Source: Desulfovibrio sp. UCD-KL4C
Lineage (GTDB): Bacteria; Desulfobacterota; Desulfovibrionia; Desulfovibrionales; Desulfovibrionaceae
NCBI RefSeq assembly: GCF_006210265.1
Contig: NZ_VCNC01000008.1
Span: forward strand, 1-64,000
Direction: 5' to 3'
Length of the DNA stretch: 64,000 bases
Part shown: positions 881-52,542 of the stretch, in pieces
Layout of the letters: each line of letters begins with the position of its first letter
How positions within the stretch are numbered: position 1 is the first letter of the stretch
Notes under the pieces: generated by a model
What the model saw: only the letters and a program-made list of their open reading frames with translations
Told to the model about the DNA's origin: nothing
Databases searched by the model: none
Program-made: the position numbers and the translations under genes

Positions 881-1390
881 TTATGCAGTGGTTGGAGGAG
901 TGAAAACACGTGAGCTTAGTTCTTTATCAAGAGCGAACATACCGTTGCCTTCGCCGCCGGTAAGTCTGAGCTTATTCAGTACTTCATTCACGTTGTCTTC
1001 TTCTTCAACCTGTTCTGTTACGAACCATTGCAGGAAGATGTTGGTAGCGTGATCTCTTTCATCAATAGCCAGATTAATCAGGTTATTGATAAGTGAGGTA
1101 ACTTTCTGCTCGTGCTCAAGAACTGCTTTAATGGCATCAAGAGGGCTTTTCCACTCGGCTTCTGGACCTTCAATCGCAGTCAGTAGAACCTTTCCACCGC
1201 GCTGAATTATGTAGTCATAGAATTTTGTGGCATGGAACTGTTCTTCCTGTGCCTGAACTCTCATCCAGTTCGCAAACCCGCTCAGTCCGATGTCGCTAAA
1301 GTAAGCGGACATGGAAAGGTATAGATAAGCAGAGTAGAATTCAGCGTTCAAATGTTCATTCAATGCTTTTTCAAGAACTTTATTGGACAT
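881..1390 (-). CDS. ftn: Non-haem ferritin
   Basis: A 169-residue ferritin that oxidises Fe(II) and stores it as a mineral core in a cytoplasmic 24-mer. The ferroxidase ligands of bacterial FtnA are all present at the usual numbering: Glu17, Glu50, His53, Glu94, Gln127 and Glu130. The length is typical and there is no haem-binding Met as in bacterioferritin. It is the last gene of a minus-strand run, HEAT protein-cydA-cydB-ftn, 33 bp after cydB and directly before a strong terminator. Its position beside oxygen-consuming enzymes suggests a role in limiting free iron, and so Fenton chemistry, during air exposure. Confidence 0.93.
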
Positions 1391-1423
1391 GTTATTAACT
1401 CTCCAACATTTTTAAATGGTTGC

Positions 1424-2437
1424 CTAATAACCGAGATCTTCGTCGGTTATCTTGGTTGCAAAAAACTTGTGCATCCAGAATTGATATATAATTACAATTG
1501 GCACCATTACTAGGGCTACTGTCAACATGATTTTAAGAGTCAGCTGACTTGAAGCCGCGTTATAGATAGTTATGGAGAATGCCGGATTAATGCTTGAAGG
1601 CAGTAGTGCTGGGAATAATCCTATAACTCCGAATAAGGTGGTTGAAACGATGAGCAGTGCTGAGCTGGCCCATGCTTTCCACCATTTCTGAGCAGAGATG
1701 AGTGTACGGGTCTTAACAATTGCAAAGATCGGTACAAGCAGAATCAATAACAGAATAGGGTGTGCAAGATAGTTGCTTAGCAGCTTGGTATAAATACCGG
1801 TAAGAGCAAGGAAAGCAACGTATACAGCAACTAAGATAGGCCAAATGGCTGCAGCCATATTGCCTGCACGTTCATTCAGATCTCCTGTAGTACGTACAGC
1901 AAGCCATAAGCACCCATGAAGTGTGAAGAGCAGTACAAATAAAACTCCACCGGCAAGGCCGTAAGGATTAAGCAGAGTCAGCAAGCCGCCCTGAAAAACG
2001 CCTTCAGCATTAATGGGGATTCCCTGAAAGATGTTTGCAAATGCAACACCTAAAAGCAGGGCCGGTACAGCACTACCGAAGACCATGCATGCATCCCAGA
2101 ATTTGCGGGCGCCGTCTGATTCGACTAGCCCTCTAAATTCAAATGCAACGCCGCGAATAATAAGGGCCATCAGTAGCAGCATTAAAGCTGTGTAAAGTCC
2201 GCTGAACATTACCGCATAAGCTTTTGGAAAAGCCGCAAAGGTTACTCCGCCTGCGGTAATAAGCCAAACTTCATTTCCGTCCCAGAAAGGGCCCATTGCA
2301 TTAAAGATTGTTTTTTTATCTTTCTCGTTTTTGGCGAGAAATGGCATCATTGCGCCTAGACCGAGGTCATAACCGTCAAGCATAAAATAGACGGCCCAGA
2401 GCACTCCCCATAATAAGAACCATATAGTTTCCAGCAT
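1424..2437 (-). CDS. cydB: Cytochrome bd quinol oxidase subunit II
   Basis: A 337-residue integral membrane protein with about eight hydrophobic segments. It begins MLETIWFLLWGVLWAVYF and carries the CydB signature region GYDLGLGAMMPF near residues 23-34 and WDGNEVWLI at about 52-60. It is the structural partner of CydA in the membrane quinol oxidase that reduces O2 to water at very low O2. It follows cydA by 36 bp and precedes ferritin by 33 bp, so co-transcription is likely. In anaerobic sulfate reducers this enzyme is known mainly as an oxygen scavenger. Confidence 0.95.
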   Translation of the reverse strand: MLETIWFLLWGVLWAVYFMLDGYDLGLGAMMPFLAKNEKDKKTIFNAMGPFWDGNEVWLITAGGVTFAAFPKAYAVMFSGLYTALMLLLMALIIRGVAFEFRGLVESDGARKFWDACMVFGSAVPALLLGVAFANIFQGIPINAEGVFQGGLLTLLNPYGLAGGVLFVLLFTLHGCLWLAVRTTGDLNERAGNMAAAIWPILVAVYVAFLALTGIYTKLLSNYLAHPILLLILLVPIFAIVKTRTLISAQKWWKAWASSALLIVSTTLFGVIGLFPALLPSSINPAFSITIYNAASSQLTLKIMLTVALVMVPIVIIYQFWMHKFFATKITDEDLGY

Positions 2438-2473
2438 GTTTATCTCCTTGACTTGTAGAGTTTAGTAAAGCTC

Positions 2474-3787
2474 TTAAGCCTTCACAGGTTCAGGCCCTTT
2501 GCGTGCAAATTTGGTCAGCAGGAATATTTCGCAGGTACCGAGTATTGTGTATAGCAGGGTAAGCCCGATGAATGAAAATGCGACCTGACTTGTCACGATG
2601 GGAGAAACCGCATCACTGGTTTTCATTATGCCGTATACTATCCACGGCTGTCTTCCTACTTCAGCTATCGCCCAACCTGCCCAAATGGCAATGTAAGGAA
2701 GGGGAATAGAGTAGAGCATTACGCGAAGTAGCAATTTGTTTTCAACCAGATTCTTTCTCTTAATCCAAGCCCATATGCAAAGGAGAGGGAATAGAGTTCC
2801 TAGCCCGACCATCAAGCGGAAAGCAAGGAATGTAACTGTTACTGGAGGGCGGTCTTCTTTGGCCCATGCTTTAAGCCCCTTAACCGGAGCATCAAAGGAG
2901 TTGAAAGCTAAGAAGCTAAGTCCGCCAGGGATGCCGAAAAGTTCAATTGAATTTTCTTCTTTTGCTTCATTAGGCACAGAAAGGAGGTACATTGGTGCGC
3001 TGTCTGTTGTTTCCCAGAGAGCTTCCATTGCAGCAAGTTTTGCAGGTTGAACGTGTGCAACTTCCTGAGCATGTCCGTGTCCTTGCACAGCAACTGCAAT
3101 GGAAAATATGAAAGCGCAAACAAGACCCATTTTGAAAGATGTTGTGAAGAATTCAACTTCATTTTTGCGGAGCAGATGATAGGCACTGATTCCCATAATG
3201 AAGAATCCTCCAACTACTAACGCTCCGAATCCGTTGTGTAAAAACTGTGACCATGCGAAAGGGTTTGTAATAACTGTTATAAAATTTTCTAGCTCTGCAC
3301 GGCCGTTGCGGATTACGTATCCGACAGGGTTCTGCATCCAGCCATTGGCAAGAATAATCCAAACTGCTGACATATTTGATGCGATTGCAACGATCCATAT
3401 GCAGGCACAGTGCATTTTAGCTGAAAGTTTTTTCCAGCCGAAAATCCATGCGGCAAGGAAAGTTGATTCCATAAAAAAGGCGACTGTTGCTTCAATGGCG
3501 AGCAGTGATCCGAAAATATCTCCGACATATTCAGAGTATTTGGACCAGTTTGTTCCAAATTGAAATTCAAGCGTTATTCCGGTTACTACTCCGAGGACAA
3601 AGTTAATAACAAACAATTTTCCCCAGAATTTAGTCATCCTCAGATAAACTTCTTTTCCTGTGCGCACATAGTAGGTTTCCATGATGGCAACCATTACTGA
3701 AAGACCTAGTGTAAGGGGCACAAAAATGAAGTGGAACATTGTTGCCATGGCGAATTGAAGCCTTGACAGCATAAGAACATCCATCAT
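2474..3787 (-). CDS. cydA: Cytochrome bd quinol oxidase subunit I
   Basis: A 437-residue haem-bearing subunit that oxidises quinol and reduces O2. Ligands match the family: His19 (haem b595), His184 (haem b558, His186 in E. coli), Met326 in FRLMVG (haem b558), and Glu99 and Glu107 near the haem pair. The quinol loop motif KLAAMEALWET (about 250-260) and the GRQPW motif (378-382) are present. It is about 85 residues shorter than the E. coli protein because the C-terminal Q-loop insertion is missing, so it belongs to the short-loop class. The start is ATG-ATG behind AAGGAGAGGA; the second ATG fits the spacing slightly better. It lies 24 bp behind the HEAT-like gene. Confidence 0.95.
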   Translation of the reverse strand: MMDVLMLSRLQFAMATMFHFIFVPLTLGLSVMVAIMETYYVRTGKEVYLRMTKFWGKLFVINFVLGVVTGITLEFQFGTNWSKYSEYVGDIFGSLLAIEATVAFFMESTFLAAWIFGWKKLSAKMHCACIWIVAIASNMSAVWIILANGWMQNPVGYVIRNGRAELENFITVITNPFAWSQFLHNGFGALVVGGFFIMGISAYHLLRKNEVEFFTTSFKMGLVCAFIFSIAVAVQGHGHAQEVAHVQPAKLAAMEALWETTDSAPMYLLSVPNEAKEENSIELFGIPGGLSFLAFNSFDAPVKGLKAWAKEDRPPVTVTFLAFRLMVGLGTLFPLLCIWAWIKRKNLVENKLLLRVMLYSIPLPYIAIWAGWAIAEVGRQPWIVYGIMKTSDAVSPIVTSQVAFSFIGLTLLYTILGTCEIFLLTKFARKGPEPVKA

Positions 3788-3811
3788 TCCTCTCCTTGTT
3801 CAGAGTTACAA

Positions 3812-4510
3812 TTATTCCCCGGAAATTTTTTCTAGGGCCGCTTGCGCCAATTGGCCAACAGTCAAAGATTGAAGCTGTCGGTCCATATAAATACTAATAA
3901 TATTTCCATTGCCTGTGAGCTTTTTAAGCTGCGGCACAGCTTGCTTAGCTTTAAGCCCCCCAAGGGCCCAGCAGGCAATTCCAACAAGCACAGGGTCAGT
4001 AGTTGCAAGAAATTTGATTAAATCATCTGTTGCAGGGTTAACTATATCAGGTCTGCTTTGTGCAAGTCTTGCAACTCCCCACATTGCTCCGCGAAGCAGC
4101 AGAGTAAATTCAAGAAAATTTTCTGGTTTTCCTTCCGCTTCATGAATATAGCTGAGAAGAAATCTGCCATATTCGTCAGCCATAACTTTATTTGAAGCAG
4201 TAATTTCACCCATTGCTTCAGGTACACCCCAACCGCATCCACCTGATTCTTCATTAAGCATCCACATTATTCTGCGCATGACTATTCTAGCCCGTGCATC
4301 ATCTTCTGCAAACAGCCTGCATAAGACTTGCCCAAAGGATGTAACTCCGTGCCAGCGGACGATTTCAGAAGGAGCACATAGAGAGGAAAAAAGGGGAGCA
4401 ATGAGGGTTTGCATTGGATGATCTTTCATGAGCTCAGAAAATTTCTGCTCCCAGTTTTCATCTGCAAGGGCCACCATGACCGCTTTCTTTACCTGCCGTC
4501 CAACTGCCAT
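3812..4510 (-). CDS. HEAT-repeat-like protein ahead of cydA
   Basis: A 232-residue soluble alpha-helical protein with no signal peptide. Paired helices such as VRWHGVTSFGQVLCRL and GIACWALGGLKAKQAVPQL look like HEAT/PBS-lyase-type repeats. A Trp- and Gly-rich centre (about 85-100, GGCGWGVPEAMGEI) is distinctive. I believe this is the DVU0298-type family of Desulfovibrio, but I name that from memory only. It lies 24 bp upstream of cydA and would be the first gene of the cyd-ftn run, so a role in oxidase assembly or haem supply is possible. No function is established from the sequence. Confidence 0.8.
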   Translation of the reverse strand: MAVGRQVKKAVMVALADENWEQKFSELMKDHPMQTLIAPLFSSLCAPSEIVRWHGVTSFGQVLCRLFAEDDARARIVMRRIMWMLNEESGGCGWGVPEAMGEITASNKVMADEYGRFLLSYIHEAEGKPENFLEFTLLLRGAMWGVARLAQSRPDIVNPATDDLIKFLATTDPVLVGIACWALGGLKAKQAVPQLKKLTGNGNIISIYMDRQLQSLTVGQLAQAALEKISGE

Positions 4511-4529
4511 GAAGTGGATCTCCTTGTTA

Positions 4530-4558
4530 AGCGGGCGGAACTATTAATTCCACCCGCT
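4530..4558 (-). terminator. Hairpin after roo
   Basis: An 11-bp stem (4530-4540 with 4548-4558) contains one internal mismatch that becomes a U-G wobble only on the minus strand, which supports minus-strand transcription. It lies 13 bp after the roo stop. The following minus-strand sequence is not strongly T-rich, so it may be a weak terminator or an mRNA-stabilising hairpin. Confidence 0.5.
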
Positions 4559-4571
4559 ATTTATCTAATAG

Positions 4572-5774
4572 TTAGGCGTTTTTAATTTTTATTGCTTTTG
4601 CGATTTCGCGTCCCAGTTCATAACATTCCTCATAGGATTTATGATCAGGGCGGTTTTTAACCTTAATATTAGGATCAATAATTTCCATGTTCATTTTTTC
4701 CAGCCATTCTCTGAGAATCTTAACGCATTCTCCGCTCCAGCCGAATGAACCGAAACAAGCACCTATTTTGTTCTGAGGTCTTAGACCCTTAACATAAGTA
4801 AGAACATCAGCCATGCCGGGAAGGATCCCGTTGTTATGAGTAGGTGAGCCAAGAATGACTGCTCCTGCGTCAAAAACTTCAGACATAATGTCGCTATGAT
4901 GGTTAGCTTTCACATTCATGATTCTAACGCTGATACCTTCGTCTGCGAGGCCGGAAGCAATCGCATTAGCCATACGCTCTGTGGATTTCCACATGGTGTC
5001 ATAGATGATGACAGCTTTGTTTGTGGTTCTCTGCTCAGCGTATTCTACGTATTTTTGACAAGCATACGCGACATCTTCACCTCTAAACATCAACCCGTGG
5101 TCAGGACAAAGAGTGTCGATATCAAGGTTAATACTTTCTAAAAATTCAATGGTTTTTGTGACTTTAGGAGAGTAAGGATTGACGATGTTAGCATAGTACT
5201 GAGCCATAAGGTCAGTTACTTTTTCTTTGCTTACTTCATCTGCAAATCTTTCGCTGGTTGCCCAGTTCTGTCCAAATGCATCACTTGAAATAAGCATTTT
5301 AGCTTCAGGTATGCAGGTAAACATGTTGTCAGGCCAGTGGAGCATTTTGGTTTCGTAAAAACGGAGAGTTTTTTTACCTAAGGAAATTTCATCTCCGGAA
5401 TTTGCAATAACTATAGGCCAGTCTTTGCAGTCAAAGAAAGTGGCAAGTGACTTTGCTCCCATGGGTGAAATGAAAATCTTTTCAGGTTTGCAAAGTTCAA
5501 CCATACGGGCAAGACAGCCTGAATGGTCTGGCTCTAAATGGTTAACTACAATATAGTCAATTTTTTCAAGTTCAGTTAGCTGGGATACTGAGCAAAGGAA
5601 CTGGCTTTCAAATGCGGCCGGAACAGTATCAACTAGAGCTCTTTTTTCGTCTTCAACGTAAAAGGCATTGTATGTTGTACCCTTAGAGGAAAGAGCATAA
5701 CCGTGGAAGTTGCGGCAATTCCAGTCAACAACTCCAACCCAATGGATACCTTCTTTTATTTGAACAGGTCTCAC
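4572..5774 (-). CDS. roo: Rubredoxin:oxygen oxidoreductase (flavodiiron protein)
   Basis: A 400-residue class A flavodiiron protein that reduces O2 (and often NO) with electrons from rubredoxin. The N-terminal metallo-beta-lactamase-like domain has the diiron ligands His79, Glu81, Asp83 (HLEPDH), His146, Asp165 and His226. The flavodoxin domain starts near residue 253 with the FMN phosphate loop IYDTMWKSTERMA. The start codon is GTG at 5774, placed by AGGA about 8 bp upstream. It lies 92 bp beyond the rubredoxin gene with a hairpin between, so it is probably read from the rubredoxin transcript past a partial terminator. Its electron donor is therefore encoded next door. Confidence 0.95.
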   Translation of the reverse strand: MRPVQIKEGIHWVGVVDWNCRNFHGYALSSKGTTYNAFYVEDEKRALVDTVPAAFESQFLCSVSQLTELEKIDYIVVNHLEPDHSGCLARMVELCKPEKIFISPMGAKSLATFFDCKDWPIVIANSGDEISLGKKTLRFYETKMLHWPDNMFTCIPEAKMLISSDAFGQNWATSERFADEVSKEKVTDLMAQYYANIVNPYSPKVTKTIEFLESINLDIDTLCPDHGLMFRGEDVAYACQKYVEYAEQRTTNKAVIIYDTMWKSTERMANAIASGLADEGISVRIMNVKANHHSDIMSEVFDAGAVILGSPTHNNGILPGMADVLTYVKGLRPQNKIGACFGSFGWSGECVKILREWLEKMNMEIIDPNIKVKNRPDHKSYEECYELGREIAKAIKIKNA

Positions 5775-5803
5775 TATAAAATCCTACTACTTTAAAAGTT
5801 TAA

Positions 5804-5836
5804 GATAGAAAGCCGGGATTTTCCCGGCTTTCTATC
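5804..5836 (-). terminator. Strong hairpin between rubredoxin and roo
   Basis: A 15-bp perfect stem (5804-5818 with 5822-5836) has a TTT loop. On the minus strand it is followed by TTAAACTTTT, so termination may be incomplete. With only about 29 bp left before the roo start there is little room for a separate promoter, so it may set the ratio of rubredoxin to Roo. Confidence 0.75.
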
Positions 5837-5866
5837 TAAATAATTTGATGATAAATTGAGCCGTTT

Positions 5867-6025
5867 TTAGGACTCTGGCTCGAAGTCATCCTTGGATGCT
5901 CCGCAGACAGGGCATTCCCAATCGTCAGGAATGTCTTCAAATTTAGTTCCGGCAGCTATTCCGCCATCAGGGTCGCCTTCAGCAGGGTCATAAACCCAGC
6001 CACATATAGTACATACATATTTCAT
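5867..6025 (-). CDS. rub: Rubredoxin (classical, C-x2-C)
   Basis: A 52-residue electron carrier with a single Fe(Cys)4 site. The two knuckles are CTICG (Cys6, Cys9) and CPVCG (Cys39, Cys42), and the sequence [15 protein letters not shown] is typical of Desulfovibrio rubredoxins. It probably feeds electrons to Roo, encoded just downstream, and to rubrerythrin and desulfoferrodoxin upstream. The ATG at 6025 has a GGAG ribosome site. It lies 31 bp after the second rubredoxin-like gene and ends at a strong hairpin. Confidence 0.95.
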
Positions 6026-6056
6026 TTTAAATTCTCCGTTCAAAGTTAAATATTAT

Positions 6057-6236
6057 TTAAGCTAAAGATTTAAATGACTTTTTGGTAGCTCCGCAAATAG
6101 GACACTTCCAATCTTCAGGTAGATCCTTAAACTGAGTTCCTTTCGCGATTTTACCTTTCTTGTCGCCTTTATCAGGGCTGTAAATATAACCGCAATTACT
6201 AACCTGACACTGATACATTTCTTCTGGATTATTCAT
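6057..6236 (-). CDS. Rubredoxin-like protein with C-x4-C first knuckle
   Basis: A 59-residue rubredoxin homologue. The C-terminal knuckle is normal (CPICG, Cys45 and Cys48), but the first is CQVSNCG (Cys10 and Cys15), with four residues between the cysteines instead of two. Such spacing is known from Rdl or Rd-2 type rubredoxins of Desulfovibrio. The changed knuckle may shift redox potential or partner choice. It sits between dfx (19 bp) and the classical rubredoxin (31 bp) in the same direction, so it probably serves superoxide or peroxide reduction. It is Lys-rich, in contrast to the acidic classical rubredoxin next to it, which suggests a different docking partner. Confidence 0.93.
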   Translation of the reverse strand: MNNPEEMYQCQVSNCGYIYSPDKGDKKGKIAKGTQFKDLPEDWKCPICGATKKSFKSLA

Positions 6237-6255
6237 ATTAACCTCAAATTAAAGA

Positions 6256-6639
6256 TTATGCTTTCCAGAGACCGTGTAAGTTACAGTATTCACGTGCGGT
6301 AATAGGTTCATCTCCGAATTTACATCCGCAGAATTCTGCTACAGGAGCATCGCCTGGGTTAAGTTTTTTCAGGTAACGATTATTACCGGAAACAAGCTCA
6401 ATCCATTCAATGTAATGTTTTTCTTCCATAGGATGAGGGACAGAACCAACAGAAACTCTGTAGCCGCCCTCGATTTTTTCAATGACAGGAACATGTTTTT
6501 CTTTTGCTGCATCAACGGTATTTTCAGTCATGAGTTTCATGTCTGTTCCGCAGCAAGCAAGGTTGCCTTCACCGGCATGCATGACCATAGTGATATTACC
6601 GCATGCTTCACATTTGTAGATCTCAAAAAGTTTAGCCAT
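6256..6639 (-). CDS. dfx: Desulfoferrodoxin (two-iron superoxide reductase)
   Basis: A 127-residue class I superoxide reductase, which reduces superoxide to peroxide without releasing O2. Centre I uses Cys10, Cys13, Cys29 and Cys30 (desulforedoxin-like). Centre II uses His49, His69, His75, Cys119 and His122. The catalytically important Glu47-Lys48 pair is present just before His49. It is 26 bp after rbr and 19 bp before the rubredoxin-like gene, so its peroxide product can be handled by rubrerythrin from the same transcript. Confidence 0.96.
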
Positions 6640-6665
6640 TTTATTCTCCGTTGCATGGTTAGAAA

Positions 6666-7241
6666 TTAATAGTTCTCGCTAACTAGCTGGAAGTGCGCCT
6701 GTGGATGTGCGCAGGCTGGACACTGATGAGGAGCTTCATCACCTGTGTGGATGTAGCTGCAGTTCTGACACTGCCATACCACGGTAGAGTCTTTTTTAAA
6801 CACTTTACCGTCTTTAATATTTTTAGCAAGGGTAAGATAACGTTTTTCATGAAACTCTTCTGCAACGGCAATTGCTCTAAAGATGGCGGCAATTGTTGTA
6901 AATCCTTCTTCTTCAGCTATTTTTGCAAAAGATGGGTACATGTGCTGCCATTCTTCATTTTCGCCTGCAGCAGCAGCTAAAAGATTGTCTGCTGTTGTTC
7001 CGATAATTCCTGCAGGAAATGAAGCGGCTACTTCTACATCTCCGCCTTCAAGGAGTTTGAACAGACGTTTAGCGTGTTCTTTTTCTTGATTAGCTGTTTC
7101 TTCAAATATTTTAGAGATTTGAATGAAGCCGTCTTTTTTTGCTTGTGAAGCAAAATATGTGTAGCGATTACGGGCCTGTGATTCACCTGCAAAGGCAGTT
7201 AGAATATTTTTTTCAGTACGGGAACCTTTCAATCCAGCCAT
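6666..7241 (-). CDS. rbr: Rubrerythrin
   Basis: A 191-residue peroxide reductase. The N-terminal ferritin-like diiron domain (about 1-145) carries Glu-rich helices such as [15 protein letters not shown] and [13 protein letters not shown]. The C-terminal rubredoxin domain has CQNC and CPAC knuckles (about 156-177). It reduces hydrogen peroxide to water with electrons from NADH via rubredoxin. It is the first structural gene after perR, with 158 bp between, where a palindrome that could be a PerR operator is found. Confidence 0.95.
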
Positions 7242-44637: not shown

Positions 44638-45474
44638 ATGTGGGAATATACAGACAAAGTTCGAGAACATTTTTTGAACCCAAAGAATAGCGGTACCATT
44701 GAAAATGCAGATGCTGTTGGTGAAGTTGGAAGTCTTTCCTGCGGAGATGCGTTACGCCTTTTTCTTAAGATAGATGATGAAGGTCGCATTGAAGATGCAA
44801 AGTTTCAGACTTTCGGCTGTGCAAGTGCCATTGCTTCAAGCTCGGTTTTAACTGAGATGGTAAAGGGAATGACTATTGAAGAAGCTGAAAAGGTTACTAA
44901 TAAAGATATAGCAGATGCTCTCGGAGGACTGCCAAAGGAAAAGATGCACTGTTCTGTAATGGGGCAGGAAGCTCTTGATGATGCAATCAGGTGTTACAGA
45001 GGGCTGGATGTTGCGCCGGCACCGGAAGGTGAAATTGTCTGTAAGTGTTTCGGAGTTACCGACTTGCAGATTAAGAAGGCCGTCCTTGAAAATAAGCTGA
45101 CGACACTTGAAGAAGTAACCAACTTTACCAAGGCCGGCGGCGGATGTGAGGACTGTCACGGTAGAATCAAGGAGATCATCGACGAAGTCCGTTTTGGTGC
45201 TCCTGATGTGAAGCCTCTTGAGGTAAAGCCGGTTAAGCTAACCAACATCAAGCGGTTTCAGCTTGTTTCACAGACAATTGAAGAAGAAATCCGCCCGGCT
45301 CTCCATAAGGACGGAGGAGATATAGAGCTTGTTGATATTGAAGGAACGGTTGTGATTGTTTCCCTGCGAGGATCCTGTGTAGGATGTCCTTCCAGCAATT
45401 TGACGCTTAAGGATTTTGTTGAGCGCAGGCTGAAGGAAACAGTTGAAGAAGCCATAACCGTCAGGGAGGCTTAA
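44638..45474 (+). CDS. nifU: Fe-S cluster scaffold NifU (three domains)
   Basis: A 278-residue modular scaffold. The N-terminal IscU-like domain has Cys35, Cys61 and Cys105. The central [2Fe-2S] ferredoxin-like domain uses Cys135, Cys137, Cys170 and Cys173. The C-terminal Nfu domain has Cys247 and Cys250 (SCVGC). It receives sulfur from NifS and builds clusters for transfer to apo-proteins. A single base separates it from nifS. It probably serves general cluster assembly, as no nitrogenase genes are present. Confidence 0.95.
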   Translation: MWEYTDKVREHFLNPKNSGTIENADAVGEVGSLSCGDALRLFLKIDDEGRIEDAKFQTFGCASAIASSSVLTEMVKGMTIEEAEKVTNKDIADALGGLPKEKMHCSVMGQEALDDAIRCYRGLDVAPAPEGEIVCKCFGVTDLQIKKAVLENKLTTLEEVTNFTKAGGGCEDCHGRIKEIIDEVRFGAPDVKPLEVKPVKLTNIKRFQLVSQTIEEEIRPALHKDGGDIELVDIEGTVVIVSLRGSCVGCPSSNLTLKDFVERRLKETVEEAITVREA

Positions 45475-45475
45475 G

Positions 45476-46663
45476 ATGCGTTCAGTATATCTTGATAACA
45501 ATGCAACAACAATGGTTGCCCCTGAAGTACGTGAAGCAATTTTACCCTTGCTTGAATCTGAATATGGAAATCCTTCCAGTATGCATGGTCTTGGTGGAAG
45601 TTCAGGAAAATTATTGTCGGAAGCTCGTGAAAGAGTTGCAGCCGGATTAGGTTGCAGTCCTTCAGAAATAATATTTACCTCATGTGGAACCGAAAGCGAT
45701 AATACCGCAATCCATTCAGCAACTGAATCACAGCCTGAGAAGAAGCATATTATCACTACCCGTGTGGAACATCCTGCGGTCTTAAATGTGGCTAAGCATT
45801 TTGAGCGAAAAGGGTATGACATAACTCTTCTTAGTGTTGATTCCGAGGGACGTATGGATCTCGATCAGCTTCGTAAAGCGATCAGACCGGACACTGCTCT
45901 TGTTTCAGTTATGTATGCAAACAATGAGTCCGGTGTTATTTCTCCTATTGAAGAAATGGTCCAGATCACAAAGGAACGCGGGGTTCTTTTTCATACCGAT
46001 GCAGTTCAAGCTATAGGAAAAATTCCTATTGATTTGAAAACGTTGCCTGTGGATTATCTGGCCCTGTCAGGGCATAAGATTCATGCTCCCAAGGGAGTAG
46101 GTGTTCTCTTTTTACGTCGCAATACTCCATTCAGACCATTTATGCTGGGCGGACATCAAGAACTAGGGCGCAGGGGCGGAACTGAAAATATTCCGGGCAT
46201 TGTTGGACTCGGTATGGCTATGGACCTTGCGGGTAAGCATATTGGAGAAGAAAATACCAGAGTTCGTGCAATGCGTGACAGGCTTGAAAAAGGACTTATG
46301 GCGACGATTCCTGATGCCATGGTGAATGGTGTCGGAGCTGAAAGGCTACCTAACACTTTGAGTATTGCGTTCAAGTATATTGAAGGGGAAGCAATGCTTC
46401 TTTTGCTTGATCAGTTCGGTATCTGTGCAAGCTCCGGTTCTGCGTGTACATCTGGCAGTCTGGAACCTTCACATGTTCTCCGTGCAATGGGAGTCCCATT
46501 TACTTACGCCCACGGTTCGCTCAGATTCTCCTTGTCCGTTTACAATACTGACGAAGATATTGATCTGGTTTTAAAAGAACTTCCACCGATCATCAGCAGA
46601 TTGCGTGAATTTTCACCGTTCAGACGCGGTGATGAAGGCTTAGACTGGGTAGAAGATCATTAA
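45476..46663 (+). CDS. nifS: Cysteine desulfurase NifS
   Basis: A 395-residue PLP enzyme that takes sulfur from cysteine as a persulfide. PLP binds Lys201 (SGHKIHAPKG) and the active Cys is Cys324 in SSGSACTSG. The C-terminus is short, as in NifS/group I. It is coupled to nifU by one base and ends before a terminator 35 bp downstream. Confidence 0.95.
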   Translation: MRSVYLDNNATTMVAPEVREAILPLLESEYGNPSSMHGLGGSSGKLLSEARERVAAGLGCSPSEIIFTSCGTESDNTAIHSATESQPEKKHIITTRVEHPAVLNVAKHFERKGYDITLLSVDSEGRMDLDQLRKAIRPDTALVSVMYANNESGVISPIEEMVQITKERGVLFHTDAVQAIGKIPIDLKTLPVDYLALSGHKIHAPKGVGVLFLRRNTPFRPFMLGGHQELGRRGGTENIPGIVGLGMAMDLAGKHIGEENTRVRAMRDRLEKGLMATIPDAMVNGVGAERLPNTLSIAFKYIEGEAMLLLLDQFGICASSGSACTSGSLEPSHVLRAMGVPFTYAHGSLRFSLSVYNTDEDIDLVLKELPPIISRLREFSPFRRGDEGLDWVEDH

Positions 46664-46697
46664 TAAACAAAGGTTTTAAGTAATTTGATTATTATTG

Positions 46698-46740
46698 CGG
46701 ACGGGGAACATTTTGAACAGGTTTCTCGTCCGTGTTTTTT
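46698..46740 (+). terminator. Terminator or attenuator between nifS and cysK
   Basis: Arms CGGACG and CGTCCG with further pairs containing two G-U wobbles that form only in plus-strand RNA, followed by a run of T. It separates nifUS from cysK and may act as an attenuator. Confidence 0.75.
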
Positions 46741-46832
46741 GGTAGGAGTTGACTCTGTAAAATAAGTTGCTACCTATATATCTTAGGCGGAAGCGGCTGT
46801 TTTTTAAGCTCTAAAACGAAAACGAGGGGCAG

Positions 46833-47756
46833 ATGAACATACATGACTCAATGATTTCACTGGTTGGCGATACTCCGATGGTTAAACTTAACCGTACTGC
46901 AGAAGGCTGTGTAGCTACTGTTGCAGCCAAGCTTGAGTTCTTTAATCCATGTTCGTCCGTTAAAGATCGTATCGGTGTATCAATGATTGAAGAGGCTGAG
47001 AAACGTGGAGATCTTAAAAAAGGATCAATCGTTGTTGAGCCTACCAGCGGAAATACCGGAATAGGTCTTGCCTTCGTATGCGCTGTAAAGGGGTATAGGC
47101 TTATTTTGACCATGCCTGAGAGCATGAGTCAGGAAAGAAAGGATTTACTTAAAGGGTTCGGAGCGGAGCTTGTTTTAACTCCCGCACCTAAAGGCATGAG
47201 CGGAGCGATTGAGAAGGCCCGTGAAATTGCCTCTGAAAATCCTGGTTCTTTTTTACCCATGCAGTTTGCAAATAAAGATAATCCCAAAGCTCATCGTGCT
47301 GGAACCGCAGAAGAAATCTGGCGGGATACCGATGGTAAAATAGATATTTTTGTGTGTGGAGTCGGTACTGGCGGTACAATCACAGGTGTTGGATCTGTTC
47401 TGAAAGAACGTAATTCTGACATAAAAATTGTTGCAGTTGAGCCGTCTAAGTCTCCTGTTCTATCTGGTGGAGATCCTTCTCCACATGGCATTCAGGGTAT
47501 CGGAGCCGGATTTGTACCTGAGGTGCTTCAAACCGAAGTTCTTGATGAAGTCTTTAAAGTTGACGATGCGGACGCTTTGAGGGGGGCTCACAGCCTTATG
47601 GTGGAAGAAGGTATTTTATGTGGAATTTCTGCCGGAGCCGCGGCCCATGCTGCAATTGAAATTGCAAAACGTGAAGAAAATAAAGATAAGCTGGTAGTTT
47701 TCATCGTTCCTGACACAGGCGAACGGTATTTAAGCACCGCGCTTTTTAAGGAATAA
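46833..47756 (+). CDS. cysK: Cysteine synthase (O-acetylserine sulfhydrylase)
   Basis: A 307-residue PLP enzyme making cysteine from O-acetylserine and sulfide. The PLP Lys is Lys44 in SSVKDRIG. PTSGNTGIGLA and GVGTGGTITG are substrate and phosphate loops. The C-terminal Ser motif follows. It lies 10 bp before cysE, the enzyme that makes its substrate and forms a complex with it. Confidence 0.95.
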   Translation: MNIHDSMISLVGDTPMVKLNRTAEGCVATVAAKLEFFNPCSSVKDRIGVSMIEEAEKRGDLKKGSIVVEPTSGNTGIGLAFVCAVKGYRLILTMPESMSQERKDLLKGFGAELVLTPAPKGMSGAIEKAREIASENPGSFLPMQFANKDNPKAHRAGTAEEIWRDTDGKIDIFVCGVGTGGTITGVGSVLKERNSDIKIVAVEPSKSPVLSGGDPSPHGIQGIGAGFVPEVLQTEVLDEVFKVDDADALRGAHSLMVEEGILCGISAGAAAHAAIEIAKREENKDKLVVFIVPDTGERYLSTALFKE

Positions 47757-47766
47757 GGTTGATAGA

Positions 47767-48672
47767 ATGGTAAGTAAAATAGCTGCTCCAATGTTGTCAG
47801 ATGTCGTTGATGCTCTTTGTGAGGAAGAATCATATCAGGCCGTTTACCATATGCCTGAACATGATCGCCCGATGCCTTCACTTGAAGCACTTGGAGAACT
47901 TGTGGAACGTCTCCGTTCCGTACTTTTCCCCGGATATTTCGGTGATTCAGAAATTCGCCCTGATACCATGCGCTATCACATAGGCGGCAGTCTTGATATT
48001 GCCTACAGGTTGCTTGTAGAGCAGATTTCACGCGGGCATTGCTTTTTTTGCAAAACTGACGAACGCAATTGCAATGATTGCGATGCTCAAGCAAAGCGTA
48101 TTGCCGGTGAATTTATGTCCAAGCTTCCGCATATTCGTAAGCTTCTAGCAACTGATGTGCAAGCCGCCTACGTAGGTGATCCCGCTTCCAAAAGCCCGGG
48201 TGAAACTATTTTCTGTTATCCGAGCATCACTGCTTTGACTCATCACCGCATTGCTCATGAACTTTATAAGCTGAATGTGGATTTGATTCCAAGAATTATC
48301 GGTGAAATGGCCCATTCTAAAACCGGAATTGATATTCATCCCGGAGCCCAGATCGGAGAACATTTCTTTATTGATCATGGAACAGGTACTGTTATCGGTG
48401 AAACCTGTGTTATCGGGCGTAATGTCCGTCTTTATCAGGGTGTAACCCTTGGTGCTAAGAGCTTTCCACAGGATGATTCCGGTAATTTAATTAAGGGTAT
48501 CGCCCGTCATCCAATAGTAGAAGATGATGTTATTGTTTATTCCGGAGCTACTATTTTAGGCAGAGTTACTATCGGTAAAGGTACTGTTATCGGTGGTAAT
48601 GTCTGGATTACCAGATCTGTTGCTGCCGGAGAAAGGTTGCTTCAAGATAAGGAGCAGGATCTTAATATGTAA
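47767..48672 (+). CDS. cysE: Serine O-acetyltransferase
   Basis: A 301-residue hexapeptide-repeat acetyltransferase that makes O-acetylserine from serine and acetyl-CoA. The helical N-terminal region contains CFFCKTDERNCNDCD (a Cys cluster, about 91-106). The left-handed beta helix starts near IDIHPGAQIGEHFFIDHGTG, whose His residues are catalytic. It is followed by a strong terminator. A fragment related to its hexapeptide region occurs at 52725-52808. Confidence 0.94.
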   Translation: MVSKIAAPMLSDVVDALCEEESYQAVYHMPEHDRPMPSLEALGELVERLRSVLFPGYFGDSEIRPDTMRYHIGGSLDIAYRLLVEQISRGHCFFCKTDERNCNDCDAQAKRIAGEFMSKLPHIRKLLATDVQAAYVGDPASKSPGETIFCYPSITALTHHRIAHELYKLNVDLIPRIIGEMAHSKTGIDIHPGAQIGEHFFIDHGTGTVIGETCVIGRNVRLYQGVTLGAKSFPQDDSGNLIKGIARHPIVEDDVIVYSGATILGRVTIGKGTVIGGNVWITRSVAAGERLLQDKEQDLNM

Positions 48673-48702: not shown

Positions 48703-48738
48703 AAAAATGGCTGGGAGTTTTAACTCCCAGCCATTTTT
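48703..48738 (+). terminator. Terminator after cysE
   Basis: A 16-bp stem (about 48703-48719 with 48722-48737) closes a 2-nt loop, with T-runs at both ends. It can serve both cysE and the converging cytochrome genes. Confidence 0.9.
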
Positions 48739-48761: not shown

Positions 48762-50309
48762 TTATTTATTGCGAAGCAAGGCCGTAAGCGTGACCAGATC
48801 ATGGCGGATATTTTCAGGGAGTGCTCGGAAGGGTTGCATCACCGTACCGGGATATCCCTCAGTTATTATCTTGAATGCGCGGTCCGGTTCTAAGGAAAAT
48901 CGTTGTAAATCCGGCGGAGCCGGGCGCAAAGTGTGTCCGAATTTACTGATATTTCCGTTTTGGGCGTGACAAGTTGCACAGGAATCTTTCCAAACTTGTT
49001 TGGCCTGGTTGCTCACGGTATGTTTAGAGATTGTAACTGGGTGGAACATGGCGAATTGTTTATCCAGTTCCGCAAGCAGGCTGTCGATCTTATCGCCGTC
49101 AAACATAGTGAAATACGGCATGTCTGAACCATCAATTCCCTTAAGTATAAGCTCACGCACGTACGCTTTGTCGGCACGGATAGCGGTCAGATTCTCAGCT
49201 TTGATCAGCAGCCGTTTAGCGGCAGGTCCGCCGCCTATTCCGCCTGCTCCATGGCATGGTTGGCAACTGCCTTTATAGAAGGTGCTGCCGTTATTGTACA
49301 CTGTTGCCAATTTGGTCTTGAATCTCTCCAAGGCCTGTTTGCGATATTTGCTCAGGTCGGCAGATTCCTTTTTTAAGGAGGCCCTTGCCTGCTTATGCAA
49401 TAAGTTCAGCGTGGTGTTTTGCAAAAACTGCCGAGCCATCAACATGGATACGAAGATTATGGGCAGCAGAAGCAGTGGAGACATTATTCTTGGGGTTGTC
49501 GGGGGACAGGATGGGCGTAAAGTCCAGGCTAGTACCACCGCAATTATCGATCCCAAGGTAACCGCTGCTAATACAGGCCAGTTGAATACGCTAGCTACTG
49601 TGAATAATAAAGGAACACCTATTGCCACCTGAAACAAGATGCCCCCTAGCAGCCAGCGTTGCAGTTTGGCGCTCTTGTCTCCATTTCTTTTGGAAAAGAA
49701 TATGTGGAAGGTCGCTCCGAAGACAACGGCTGCGCCGAGCACATGCAGGTAGCGGAACAGCCAATGTGGCAGATAAACAGAAGACAGGGGTATGGTTCTG
49801 GCCCCAAACTGAGCCCATGATTCCGGCCGTTCCATCAGGGACAAGGCTCCGGTGAACACAACGGGCACAGTGAGCAGGGCTCCTACGCCTAGTGCACCGC
49901 AAAGAAAGGGGAGCCATGGGCTGGTTAGCATTTTGCGTTCAAACAGTTCGATGCTTAAAAAAGCAAAGATAAGCAGAGGAATGATTGCCAGCCATGTGTA
50001 GGCGAATAGTCCGGTAACCGTGAAAAAGCCCAATGAAGATATTACCTGAATGATTAAAAGCGGAGCTACACCGAGGACAACAGCTAAGCTTTTGAGTCCT
50101 AGGTGAGACTTGATCATCCCTTGGTTCCATACCAATTCATCTCGATCACCGGAAAACAGCCCCTGCAGAAAGAAAATAAAACCGAGCATGGCTGTTCCTA
50201 ACATGAGCAGTACGAATAGTAGATGCAATCCAAAGGTAATGAAGAGTAGGACGTGTAACCACCCCTCACTGAGCGGTAGTGCAAGAAACAAATCTTTCCA
50301 TTGTTCCAT
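48762..50309 (-). CDS. Multi-spanning membrane protein with two c-type haem sites
   Basis: A 515-residue protein. The first 300 residues form about eight membrane segments with several His (WLHVLLFITFGLHLLF, LPHWLFRYLHVLG) that could bind b-type haem. The C-terminal part is periplasmic with two CxxCH sites, CQPCH (about 349-353) and CATCH (about 444-448). The start may be ATG 50309 or GTG 50312, just behind AAGGAG; it overlaps the upstream gene's stop codon, as TGATG for the ATG. It is the last of three overlapping genes. I do not know a named family for the whole. It likely transfers electrons between the membrane pool and periplasmic cytochromes. Confidence 0.75.
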   Translation of the reverse strand: MEQWKDLFLALPLSEGWLHVLLFITFGLHLLFVLLMLGTAMLGFIFFLQGLFSGDRDELVWNQGMIKSHLGLKSLAVVLGVAPLLIIQVISSLGFFTVTGLFAYTWLAIIPLLIFAFLSIELFERKMLTSPWLPFLCGALGVGALLTVPVVFTGALSLMERPESWAQFGARTIPLSSVYLPHWLFRYLHVLGAAVVFGATFHIFFSKRNGDKSAKLQRWLLGGILFQVAIGVPLLFTVASVFNWPVLAAVTLGSIIAVVLAWTLRPSCPPTTPRIMSPLLLLPIIFVSMLMARQFLQNTTLNLLHKQARASLKKESADLSKYRKQALERFKTKLATVYNNGSTFYKGSCQPCHGAGGIGGGPAAKRLLIKAENLTAIRADKAYVRELILKGIDGSDMPYFTMFDGDKIDSLLAELDKQFAMFHPVTISKHTVSNQAKQVWKDSCATCHAQNGNISKFGHTLRPAPPDLQRFSLEPDRAFKIITEGYPGTVMQPFRALPENIRHDLVTLTALLRNK

Positions 50310-51664
50310 CACTTCTTCTCCTTGAACAGCTGAGGCCTCGGGCGGATGTTCTTGTTAGCCATATAGTAAAGGTAGGTGGACATGGTCAGCCTCTCCTGTT
50401 CCGAGCCGGTAAATGGGGGCATGAAAGGCATCATATTTTCGGTAATGGACGTGATGGCATTGACGCCTTCTAAGGTTCTTCCCTGCAACCGTTTATTTAT
50501 GTCATTAATTCCGCCTATGGTGTGACACACTCCGCAGTTAGCATCGAATAAAGCTCGTCCGGAGACAGCGTAAGGCGCGTCATCAGTAGTCGTATTTATC
50601 CAGCTTAAAGAGTTTAGCAGATTACGATTTTTTGCTTGGGAAGCCTCTGTTCGGACCATAGGGATCTGGTTGGCATACATATAACCCGGCAGTAGATACG
50701 GCCCGCGCACGAATTCGCGCACACGTTCAAATTCGGTCACCATGCCTATGCTCAGTATTACGCAGGGGATAAACATAATCAGACTCAATTTGTGACGACG
50801 TAGCATAGCAGCTAATGCAGCAAAGAGAAGACAGGTTGCTGCCGCAATATTGATTGCGGGCAGGAACTTAGTATTTTGAGACCATGCCGAGGTGGCTACA
50901 GCAAATTTCCAGTGGGTCAGATAGGTTTCTGGAACACGGGAAAAATAGATAAAGGTTGCCACTCCCGTGCAGATTCCGGCGATGAGCATGGTCCATCCGC
51001 AAGTGCGAAGTATTTTGCCGCGTTCTTCCGTGCTTCCCTTGAAGCGCCATGAAGTCCAGCCCATAGCCAAGAGCGCCCCCATGGTGATACCGGCTGCTAT
51101 GCGCAGGATGCACTGGGGTATAAAGGTCGGGTTGAAGTAGGCCTGAACAAATTCTCCGCCCTGAGGCCAACCGTCCGGGGTCAGCATGAATCCGAGGATG
51201 CCGGAGATGAGAACAGCGGAACTGAAGGCTGAAAATAGGTAACCCCAACCAGCGAGCATAAGTTTGCGGGGGTGTTGTTCTGCTAAGCGATCCCAAAGAA
51301 AGTAGTAGATGAGTAAGAATATTACTTCAACGGTGAAAGCTATCCACTCTATGAACCAAGGCCAGAAAAACAGGTGAATCAGGGAACCTATACCTGCCGG
51401 GGATAGAATCCCTGTAATGAACCAGATCCCCACACCGGTAACTGCTCCCACAGAGGTGGTTATAACCACTACCGTTCCAAGCAGAGAACGTGCTGAATCC
51501 TGCCAGAAGCGGCCATGGCCTAGGGCGTGGATGGTTTGAAACATGACAATCATAAACGTTGTGCCTATCGCCACGCCATGGCTGATCAATACATGGACCA
51601 CAGCGTTTAAGGCGATAGTCATGCCGTCGCCAAGTACGGGAATATGCAACACAGGGAAGGTCAT
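50309..51664 (-). CDS. CydA-like membrane protein fused to a cytochrome c domain
   Basis: A 451-residue protein. The membrane part resembles cytochrome bd subunit I in layout: an N-terminal helix with His (VVHVLISHG), GAVTGVGIWFITG, and a helix with two Glu (Glu106, Glu113, FIEWIAFTVEV). However, the GRQPW motif and the quinol loop of CydA are absent. The C-terminal domain carries one c-type haem site, CGVCH (377-381). It overlaps both neighbours (ATGA with the preceding gene). It is probably a redox membrane subunit with b- and c-type haems; oxidase activity is not implied. Confidence 0.75.
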   Translation of the reverse strand: MTFPVLHIPVLGDGMTIALNAVVHVLISHGVAIGTTFMIVMFQTIHALGHGRFWQDSARSLLGTVVVITTSVGAVTGVGIWFITGILSPAGIGSLIHLFFWPWFIEWIAFTVEVIFLLIYYFLWDRLAEQHPRKLMLAGWGYLFSAFSSAVLISGILGFMLTPDGWPQGGEFVQAYFNPTFIPQCILRIAAGITMGALLAMGWTSWRFKGSTEERGKILRTCGWTMLIAGICTGVATFIYFSRVPETYLTHWKFAVATSAWSQNTKFLPAINIAAATCLLFAALAAMLRRHKLSLIMFIPCVILSIGMVTEFERVREFVRGPYLLPGYMYANQIPMVRTEASQAKNRNLLNSLSWINTTTDDAPYAVSGRALFDANCGVCHTIGGINDINKRLQGRTLEGVNAITSITENMMPFMPPFTGSEQERLTMSTYLYYMANKNIRPRPQLFKEKK

Positions 51665-52542
51665 TTGATTGCCTCCACTGGGAGCTTAATAACGCGTTTT
51701 ATTTTGTTGGGATGGGTTGCCATGTATTTGGGTCGAGGCTGCTCATGGGCATATGCAGCCACATTTAAAGCCTGTTCCTTGGTCAAGATCGGACCGGATT
51801 TAGGCATGAAACGCCAAGTGAAGACTGAAAAAGTTCTAAGTCGGTGCATGCCTGCGCCGTCATTGAAAGATTTATCTCCCCATAGCGCAGGAGCAATGAG
51901 TGTTCCGTGTCCGTCGTCACCGTGACATCGGGAACAGACGTCTGCGTAAATTTTCTTGCCCGCAGCGACATCAGCTTTACTGTCTATGCCGAGGTCGTGG
52001 GGTACTCCCAACCATGGCGGGTTGGAGTATATGGGGACTCCCTTGGAAATCCATTGGTAGTAGACCAGTAGAGACTGCATAATTTGGCTATTTGGAGCCG
52101 GAGCCTTGCCGTTCATGCTGCGCTCGAAACACCCTTGAGTACGCAAGGCAAGGTCTGCTGTGTATTCCCTGCGATTGCGATAGGCTGGGTATTTAGCGCC
52201 CACGCCGACCAGAGAGAGTGTGTCCTTGCTGCGTCCTCCCTCGAAGTGGCAATTAGTGCAAGCCAAATCGTTGCCCACATACTCACTGGCGTACTTTTGG
52301 GTCTCAGTCATGATCTTATAGCCGATCATGACCTGCTCACGGATGGATTTTGGTGCGTCTTCCAGTGCTGGAGGGTTGAAGAGCGGTTCAAGCGCAGCAA
52401 CATGTCCACTGGAATTGGAAGTCACGGAGGTCGCTATTCTGGCTTGCGGGACAGTCCATTGGAAAAATATGGCCAGCCATGCACCGAACGCTAGTAACAG
52501 GACTATCAATGTCAGAGAAAAATACAATTTTTTATTATTCAT
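51661..52542 (-). CDS. TsdA-like diheme cytochrome c
   Basis: A 293-residue membrane-anchored periplasmic cytochrome (one segment, about 7-28). Haem sites are CTNCH (95-99) and CSRCH (203-207). Between them GCFERSMNGKAP (Cys138) matches the TsdA/SoxA region that supplies an axial Cys to the active-site haem. After the second site, RFMPKSG (Met246) is placed like the second axial ligand of TsdA. TsdA enzymes join two thiosulfates to tetrathionate or do the reverse. I start at ATG 52542, with GGAG 6 bp upstream, rather than an ATG 21 bp earlier. It is the first of three coupled genes. Confidence 0.8.
   Translation of the reverse strand: MNNKKLYFSLTLIVLLLAFGAWLAIFFQWTVPQARIATSVTSNSSGHVAALEPLFNPPALEDAPKSIREQVMIGYKIMTETQKYASEYVGNDLACTNCHFEGGRSKDTLSLVGVGAKYPAYRNRREYTADLALRTQGCFERSMNGKAPAPNSQIMQSLLVYYQWISKGVPIYSNPPWLGVPHDLGIDSKADVAAGKKIYADVCSRCHGDDGHGTLIAPALWGDKSFNDGAGMHRLRTFSVFTWRFMPKSGPILTKEQALNVAAYAHEQPRPKYMATHPNKIKRVIKLPVEAIK

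Follow-up and report, generated by a model that had tools for sequence, protein, structure and literature searches.

A conserved gene trio of a TsdA-type cytochrome and two CydA-type subunits in Desulfovibrio: a candidate thiosulfate:oxygen oxidoreductase

The window analysed here, the first 64,000 nucleotides of contig NZ_VCNC01000008.1 of Desulfovibrio sp. UCD-KL4C (assembly GCF_006210265.1), carries at 48762-52542 three minus-strand genes that overlap by a few bases and are transcribed in the order gene 1, gene 2, gene 3. Gene 1 (51661..52542, 293 amino acids) encodes a TsdA-type diheme cytochrome with two CxxCH sites. The product of gene 2 (50309..51664, 451 amino acids) is a membrane subunit of the CydA type that keeps oxygen-site residues and carries a cytochrome c domain at its C-terminus. 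Gene 3 (48762..50309, 515 amino acids, with an alternative GTG start possible at 50312) encodes another membrane subunit with the CydA fold (A'), whose C-terminal part consists of two cytochrome c domains. The c-haem sites thus number two in gene 1, one in gene 2 and two in gene 3. An earlier inspection of the letters and open reading frames (ORFs) by a model, here called the sequence-only reading, had noted the three overlapping minus-strand genes, and we confirm this layout. Judging by a dsrA match of 601.7 bits (cut-off 392.85), the host genome is that of a sulfite/sulfate reducer. Taken together, our sequence comparisons and structure models suggest that the trio encodes a thiosulfate:oxygen oxidoreductase forming tetrathionate, and not a quinone-linked enzyme, a reading to which we assign a probability of about 0.58.

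The two CxxCH sites of gene 1, for haem 1 (residues 95-99, 52246..52260) and haem 2 (residues 203-207, 51922..51936), flank the motif GCFERSMNG, as the sequence-only reading had accurately described. Its likening of this protein to TsdA also holds, since Allochromatium vinosum TsdA matches residues 66-274 with an E value of 5.6e-34 and no SoxA-named chain occurs among the 38 matches listed at E <= 1. Gene 1 reaches the Pfam SoxA/TsdA domain (36.2, cut-off 27) and misses the NCBIfam SoxA cut-off (40.4 of 110 bits). Its N-terminus is a hydrophobic segment that by eye looks like an uncleaved membrane anchor. In A. vinosum TsdA, Cys96 is a haem ligand required for activity (PMC6879331), and the substrate residues include Arg109, Arg119 and Ser127 in precursor numbering, which we converted to 82, 92 and 100 of the mature protein, and likewise Arg224, which is conserved only in part (PMC4423706). 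We found that R124, R134, C138 and S142 of gene 1 align with Arg82, Arg92, Cys96 and Ser100, so that Cys138 (52129..52131) is the counterpart of the haem-1 axial cysteine. All four residues are kept in 27 of 34 aligned trio TsdA rows, the window included, and both the axial Cys and the haem-2 Met are present in 34/34 (one organism is counted twice, as L047 and L170 appear to be the same, and L074, which is without the active-site region, stands outside the 34). Of the seven other rows, L054 has Gly at the position of the first Arg (R124). In a tree, the 33 trio TsdA rows form one clade (100/100), separate from A. vinosum TsdA and from peroxidase-linked TsdAs; this tree includes no SoxA, leaves out L074 and L047, and has long branches for A. 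vinosum TsdA and the G274 row. We therefore identify gene 1 as a TsdA, with predicted thiosulfate oxidation or tetrathionate reduction.

The model of gene 2, computed like that of gene 3 as a single chain, shows the fold of cytochrome bd subunit I with a cytochrome c domain added at the C-terminus (CGVCH, residues 377-381, 50522..50536). Here too the sequence-only reading was accurate in calling the protein CydA-like, without the quinol loop and with a CGVCH end, and the fold now adds to that description. Most oxygen-site residues are conserved, and counterparts of the canonical H19, E107, E445 and R448 are present. The residues for quinol are a different matter: the long quinol loop is missing, the E257 position is Thr in 26/26 trio rows of the gene 2 alignment, and the K252 position is Lys in 15/26. 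At the position of the b558 ligand His186, gene 2 has Leu187/Arg188 and no His. Gene 2 is thus predicted to be a CydA-type subunit that retains the oxygen site, lacks the quinol site and reduces oxygen.

For gene 3 the sequence-only reading had reported two CxxCH sites, which are indeed there (residues 349-353, 49251..49265, and residues 444-448, 48966..48980), and had missed the CydA fold that both the model and a profile comparison now point to. The best structural match of the predicted model is a CydA chain (one chain being displayed per entry), and gene 3 matches the gene 2 profile at E 1.5e-11. Compared with the CydA and CydB sequences of the window it gave nothing firm; its membrane profile matched CydA only at a local E of 0.013, which is not firm, and it had no profile similarity to the window's CydB. 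The assignment of gene 3 as a second CydA-type subunit accordingly draws on the single-chain model, the profile match to gene 2 and their joint alignment. In this alignment, and unlike gene 2, gene 3 has a histidine (H189) at the b558 His186 position. We had also considered Met289 as the counterpart of b558 Met393 and rejected it, as the joint alignment places Met289 in a different helix, and for this reason we do not claim a complete b558 site.

That the three genes form a conserved unit is indicated by their distribution. A gene 2 homologue of at least 55% identity is found in 12/149 genomes of the family, and all 12 also have genes 1 and 3 (the TsdA of G062 being cut by contig ends). Conversely, TsdA at E <= 1e-15 is found in 13 of the 149, of which 12 carry gene 2 and the thirteenth has a peroxidase-TsdA fusion. 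Among 395 genomes of the phylum, 13 reach at least 471 bits with the gene 2 profile and a TsdA sequence adjoins in every one of them, including G435, where the TsdA is split over two frames. The other 26 phylum genomes stay at or below 237 bits; no TsdA lies within about 1.5 kb around 17 loci examined in this range, and the 17 genomes in which TsdA occurs include none of these 26 (at most six candidates were scored per genome). A contig scan gave 21 loci labelled Desulfovibrio, Desulfogranum japonicum (L045 is from strain DSM 18378), Desulfocapsa, Nitrospirae, Zixibacteria and others, with TsdA upstream in 19/21 (cut in L063). Order and strand are identical in 30/30 loci that have all three genes complete. 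This count leaves aside loci where a contig end cuts a gene (L034/L063, L046, L050, L059, L064), where TsdA is deleted (L055), absent (L062) or in two frames (L074/L163), or whose contig or genome is already represented (L048, which shares a contig with L031, and L065-L073). Moreover, the distance matrices of the three genes correlate (0.82, 0.85 and 0.96). The spread is patchy, with the trio in 3/9 genomes of the window's own genus.

The sequence-only reading had proposed a membrane redox complex that exchanges electrons between the quinone pool and thiosulfate/tetrathionate. The part that stands is the conservation together of TsdA-kind and CydA-kind redox proteins, in an organism with dsrA and recurring elsewhere as that reading had looked for; the exchange with the quinone pool does not stand, given the missing long quinol loop, the invariant Thr at the E257 position, the missing His186 and the energetics. 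Menaquinone has a potential of about -75 mV and oxygen one of about +0.8 V. The thiosulfate/tetrathionate couple lies at +198 mV (PMC9562282). As this is far above menaquinone, electrons from thiosulfate would have to go strongly uphill to enter the quinone pool, whereas oxygen would be a strong sink for them. Oxygen is therefore the more likely acceptor. In the mechanism we propose, the TsdA of gene 1, anchored on the periplasmic face, would use its Cys-ligated haem to join two thiosulfate oxidatively into tetrathionate. The electrons released would travel by way of its second haem and of the cytochrome c domains, one in gene 2 and two in gene 3, into the CydA/CydA' pair, where the gene 2 subunit, with two haems of b- or d-type, would reduce oxygen to water. 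The protons would probably come from the cytoplasm, so that the reaction may conserve energy. We infer the assembly into one complex, oxygen as acceptor, the direction, the binding of the membrane haems and the conservation of energy.

Additional support comes from the neighbouring genes of relatives, for which we searched 37 loci and the surroundings of the trio in the window with KatG, rubrerythrin, peroxidase-fusion, SoxB, SorA, DsrE and ModA queries. The distant relatives are 12 contig-scan loci whose gene 2 is at most 48% identical (L051, L053-L062, L064), several of them on short contigs. SoxB-like genes lie at most 2 kb from the trio in L051, L053 and L061 (two of these were scored, at 346 and 352 bits), and SorA-like sulfite dehydrogenase genes within about 4 kb in L053, L057, L061 and L064, so that 5/12 loci have one or the other. 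In L054 there are genes for a TauE-type exporter and a DsrE-like protein, while L055 has a rubrerythrin beside its CydA/CydA' pair and L058 a catalase-peroxidase (KatG, 1351 bits) beside the trio. SoxB-like matches at 25-28% identity in L029, L030, L033, L049 and L169 resemble general 5'-nucleotidases and were not counted. These neighbours, which belong to the relatives and not to the window, favour oxidation over tetrathionate reduction. Combined with the missing quinol site, the intact oxygen-site residues and the c-haems, they make thiosulfate:oxygen oxidoreduction the most economical reading.

Several observations weigh against it. The pair persists in L055 beside a TsdA remnant (L055:5653-5985) whose internal deletion takes out both haem sites, the Zixibacteria locus L062 has the pair without TsdA, and the TsdA of L163 lies in two frames. 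In six TsdA rows, which form one clade with a long branch (0.81), Arg/Arg/Ser are replaced by S/N, K and N and the Cys is kept, and for these a changed sulfur substrate is possible (the rows are L029, L030, L033, L049, L050 and L065, all with both haem sites and the operon retained). The haem-2 Lys of A. vinosum is absent from 34/34 rows and haem 2 resembles that of Campylobacter jejuni TsdA, and in gene 2 E106 aligns one position off E99. Among the neighbours, the scored SoxB-like matches fall under the NCBIfam cut-off of 550, and the two scored SorA-like matches (383 bits for a cut piece, and 525) under that of 600. The search for the seven neighbour kinds came up empty beside the trio of the Desulfovibrionaceae loci and up to about 5 kb from the trio of the window, bar the weak SoxB-like matches in five loci. 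Rubrerythrin and KatG each occur at one locus among the 38 stretches searched, which lowers the odds of the thiosulfate:oxygen reading and also of the thiosulfate shuttle discussed below. Finally, oxygen reduction in this organism need not fall to the trio, since its genome also encodes an ordinary bd oxidase and an octahaem paralogue of CydA.

Part of this evidence fits other explanations. The trio might be a general-purpose oxygen reductase supplied by cytochrome c, with a TsdA-like subunit that is mainly an electron inlet or whose substrate is a different sulfur compound (sulfite, sulfide, persulfide or an organic thiol). The six-row clade, with its thiosulfate-binding residues lost and the rest retained, would fit such a scheme, as would the retention of the pair without a working TsdA in L055 and L062 and the lack of a TsdA beside the octahaem paralogue in the loci examined. 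We nevertheless consider it unlikely in view of the 27/34 rows, the window's among them, in which the whole TsdA active site is preserved. Slightly less probable still in our view is a tetrathionate reductase, which would pass electrons from a periplasmic cytochrome c or from quinol to tetrathionate, giving thiosulfate in anaerobic respiration; this comes near to what the sequence-only reading had proposed. Electron flow from quinol to tetrathionate is downhill. TsdA enzymes work in both directions, and the haem-2 Met without the A. vinosum Lys recalls the C. jejuni enzyme, which is biased towards tetrathionate reduction (PMC5146829). However, gene 2 has lost its quinol-site residues, such an enzyme would not need the oxygen-site residues, which are nonetheless invariant, and some relatives have oxidative sulfur genes and oxidant-defence genes near the trio.

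The pair could also reduce another oxidant, nitric oxide or hydrogen peroxide, with thiosulfate as donor. Elsewhere TsdA is fused to a diheme peroxidase of the cytochrome c peroxidase (CCP)/MauG type, showing that it can be wired to other oxidants, and L055 has an upstream gene of the haem-copper COX1 type. Yet characterised bd-superfamily enzymes with these residues are generally known to reduce oxygen, and in the single genus where the trio and the peroxidase meet, the CCP-TsdA is a separate protein beside the trio. Moreover, the related OR-N enzymes are described as likely oxygen reductases (PMC10839748), and we regard another oxidant as the least probable of these explanations.

A wider version of the thiosulfate:oxygen reading, which we put forward only tentatively and would not bet on at even odds, is that several anaerobes carry a thiosulfate-fuelled module for oxidant removal. 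Oxygen would be handled by the TsdA-CydAA' complex and, in one genus among those examined, hydrogen peroxide by a peroxidase-TsdA fusion from the same gene run. If tetrathionate were reduced back by the cells' own sulfide, thiosulfate would be a catalytic shuttle and sulfide the true fuel. The job of canonical CydA would be split between two copies, with the oxygen site in one and the b558-type histidine in the other. The gene run in question is that of L159-L161 (three genomes, one genus). Downstream of the trio, and in its orientation, come genes for a DsrE-like protein, a CCP/MauG-TsdA fusion and a solute-binding protein. Such a fusion would be predicted to couple thiosulfate to peroxide. 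It is seen at L160:9239-11167 and likewise in L159, L161, L164, L166 and L167. No free-standing TsdA was found in the 395-genome sample: its 17 TsdA genomes hold trio copies, peroxidase fusions (G262 and G314, and as second copies G200, G338 and G457), a TsdA with CCP encoded separately next to it (G274) or a copy that is truncated and close to ORFs that by eye are transposase-like (G420).

Similar to the characterised TsdA of A. vinosum and C. jejuni and the TsdBA of Marichromatium purpuratum, gene 1 has the diheme layout, the Cys ligand, counterparts of R82, R92 and S100 and the haem-2 Met; it differs in its N-terminal membrane segment, the missing haem-2 Lys, the CydA/CydA' pair alongside and its place in a clade apart from A. 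vinosum TsdA and the peroxidase fusions. From canonical CydAB, which shares the CydA fold and the H19, E107, E445 and R448 counterparts, the trio departs in having no recognisable CydB-type gene alongside, no quinol loop or b558 histidine in gene 2, and added cytochrome c domains; the bd-type oxidases of Desulfovibrio are implied in oxygen detoxification (PMC10591310). The bd superfamily has three families, in which the OR-N CydAA' enzymes likely use cytochrome c (PMC10839748). By description, these OR-C/OR-N reductases resemble the trio in their two CydA-type subunits, oxygen-site residues, lack of a quinol site and likely cytochrome c donor, whereas the trio's pair has three c-haem domains and a neighbouring TsdA gene. 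CydAh of cable bacteria, which is homologous to CydA, has a cytochrome c domain in the periplasm and is a possible oxygen reductase (PMC13047784), is likewise similar by description. We could not find the combination of these known parts described: among the open-licence papers that our searches listed, none was seen to describe TsdA with CydA/CydA', and the superfamily paper of Murali 2021, which lies outside that search, may mention the gene set.

If the thiosulfate:oxygen reading is correct, it would explain what one branch of the bd superfamily that does without quinol is for, couple TsdA directly to a terminal oxidase and provide an oxygen-shy microbe with sulfur-powered oxygen removal. 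At interfaces in sediment and gut, sulfate reducers are exposed to oxygen and thiosulfate arises from their own sulfide, and some have been reported to oxidise thiosulfate with oxygen. We know of no enzyme behind this activity, for which the trio would then be a candidate.

The octahaem paralogue resembles gene 2 in its CydA-type N-terminal part, which shares the invariant residues and precedes the CxxCH sites, and in the second CydA-like gene paired with it. In contrast to gene 2, to which it is about 28-35% identical, it has eight CxxCH in one chain and no adjacent TsdA (L035-L037). In the window's own genome (L035:5729-9237, G000:C1) a CydA'-like gene precedes the CydA-like fusion of 822 amino acids and eight CxxCH. 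By subtraction (of the 89 genomes that gave a match, 7 had the close homologue and nothing else), a distant gene 2 relative occurs in 82/149 family genomes, and most of these relatives, not all, lie in frames of at least 800 amino acids. At L037:2520-5333, beside the paralogue, are a catalase-peroxidase-like gene of the peroxidase family and a Fur-family regulator.

Among other genes near the trio in relatives, a solute-binding protein (PF13531) recurs without an obvious transporter (L051:2051-2893, L053:4217-5053, L058:11552-12358, L159:5629-6558, L160:11237-12178 and L161:5304-6233), is ModA/CysP-like in L053 and L160, and might bind sulfur oxyanions. Upstream of the pair in L062 we noted by eye a lipoprotein-like gene with a single CxxCH. 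At L168:6095-7762, in the genus of L159-L161, a truncated TsdA lies beside ORFs that by eye are transposase-like, with no CydA pair within the 18 kb of that locus.

Within the window, ordinary cydAB lies at 1424-3787 (CydB at 1424-2437), more than 40 kb from the trio, in an oxygen-defence run (881-7241) of a ferritin-like gene, cydB, cydA and genes for a flavodiiron-type protein, desulfoferrodoxin and rubrerythrin. A promoter scan gave 7 sites against 8.8 in shuffles, no excess, and its sites were not used. A 16-pair stem at 48703..48738, between the trio and the convergent plus-strand gene, is a candidate shared terminator by pattern match only, 5 such sites being found where shuffles lead one to expect 4.7. 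The convergent genes beyond it (44638-48672) are NifU-like, a class-V aminotransferase (NifS-like), a pyridoxal-phosphate enzyme and a hexapeptide transferase, the last two by eye CysK-like and CysE-like.

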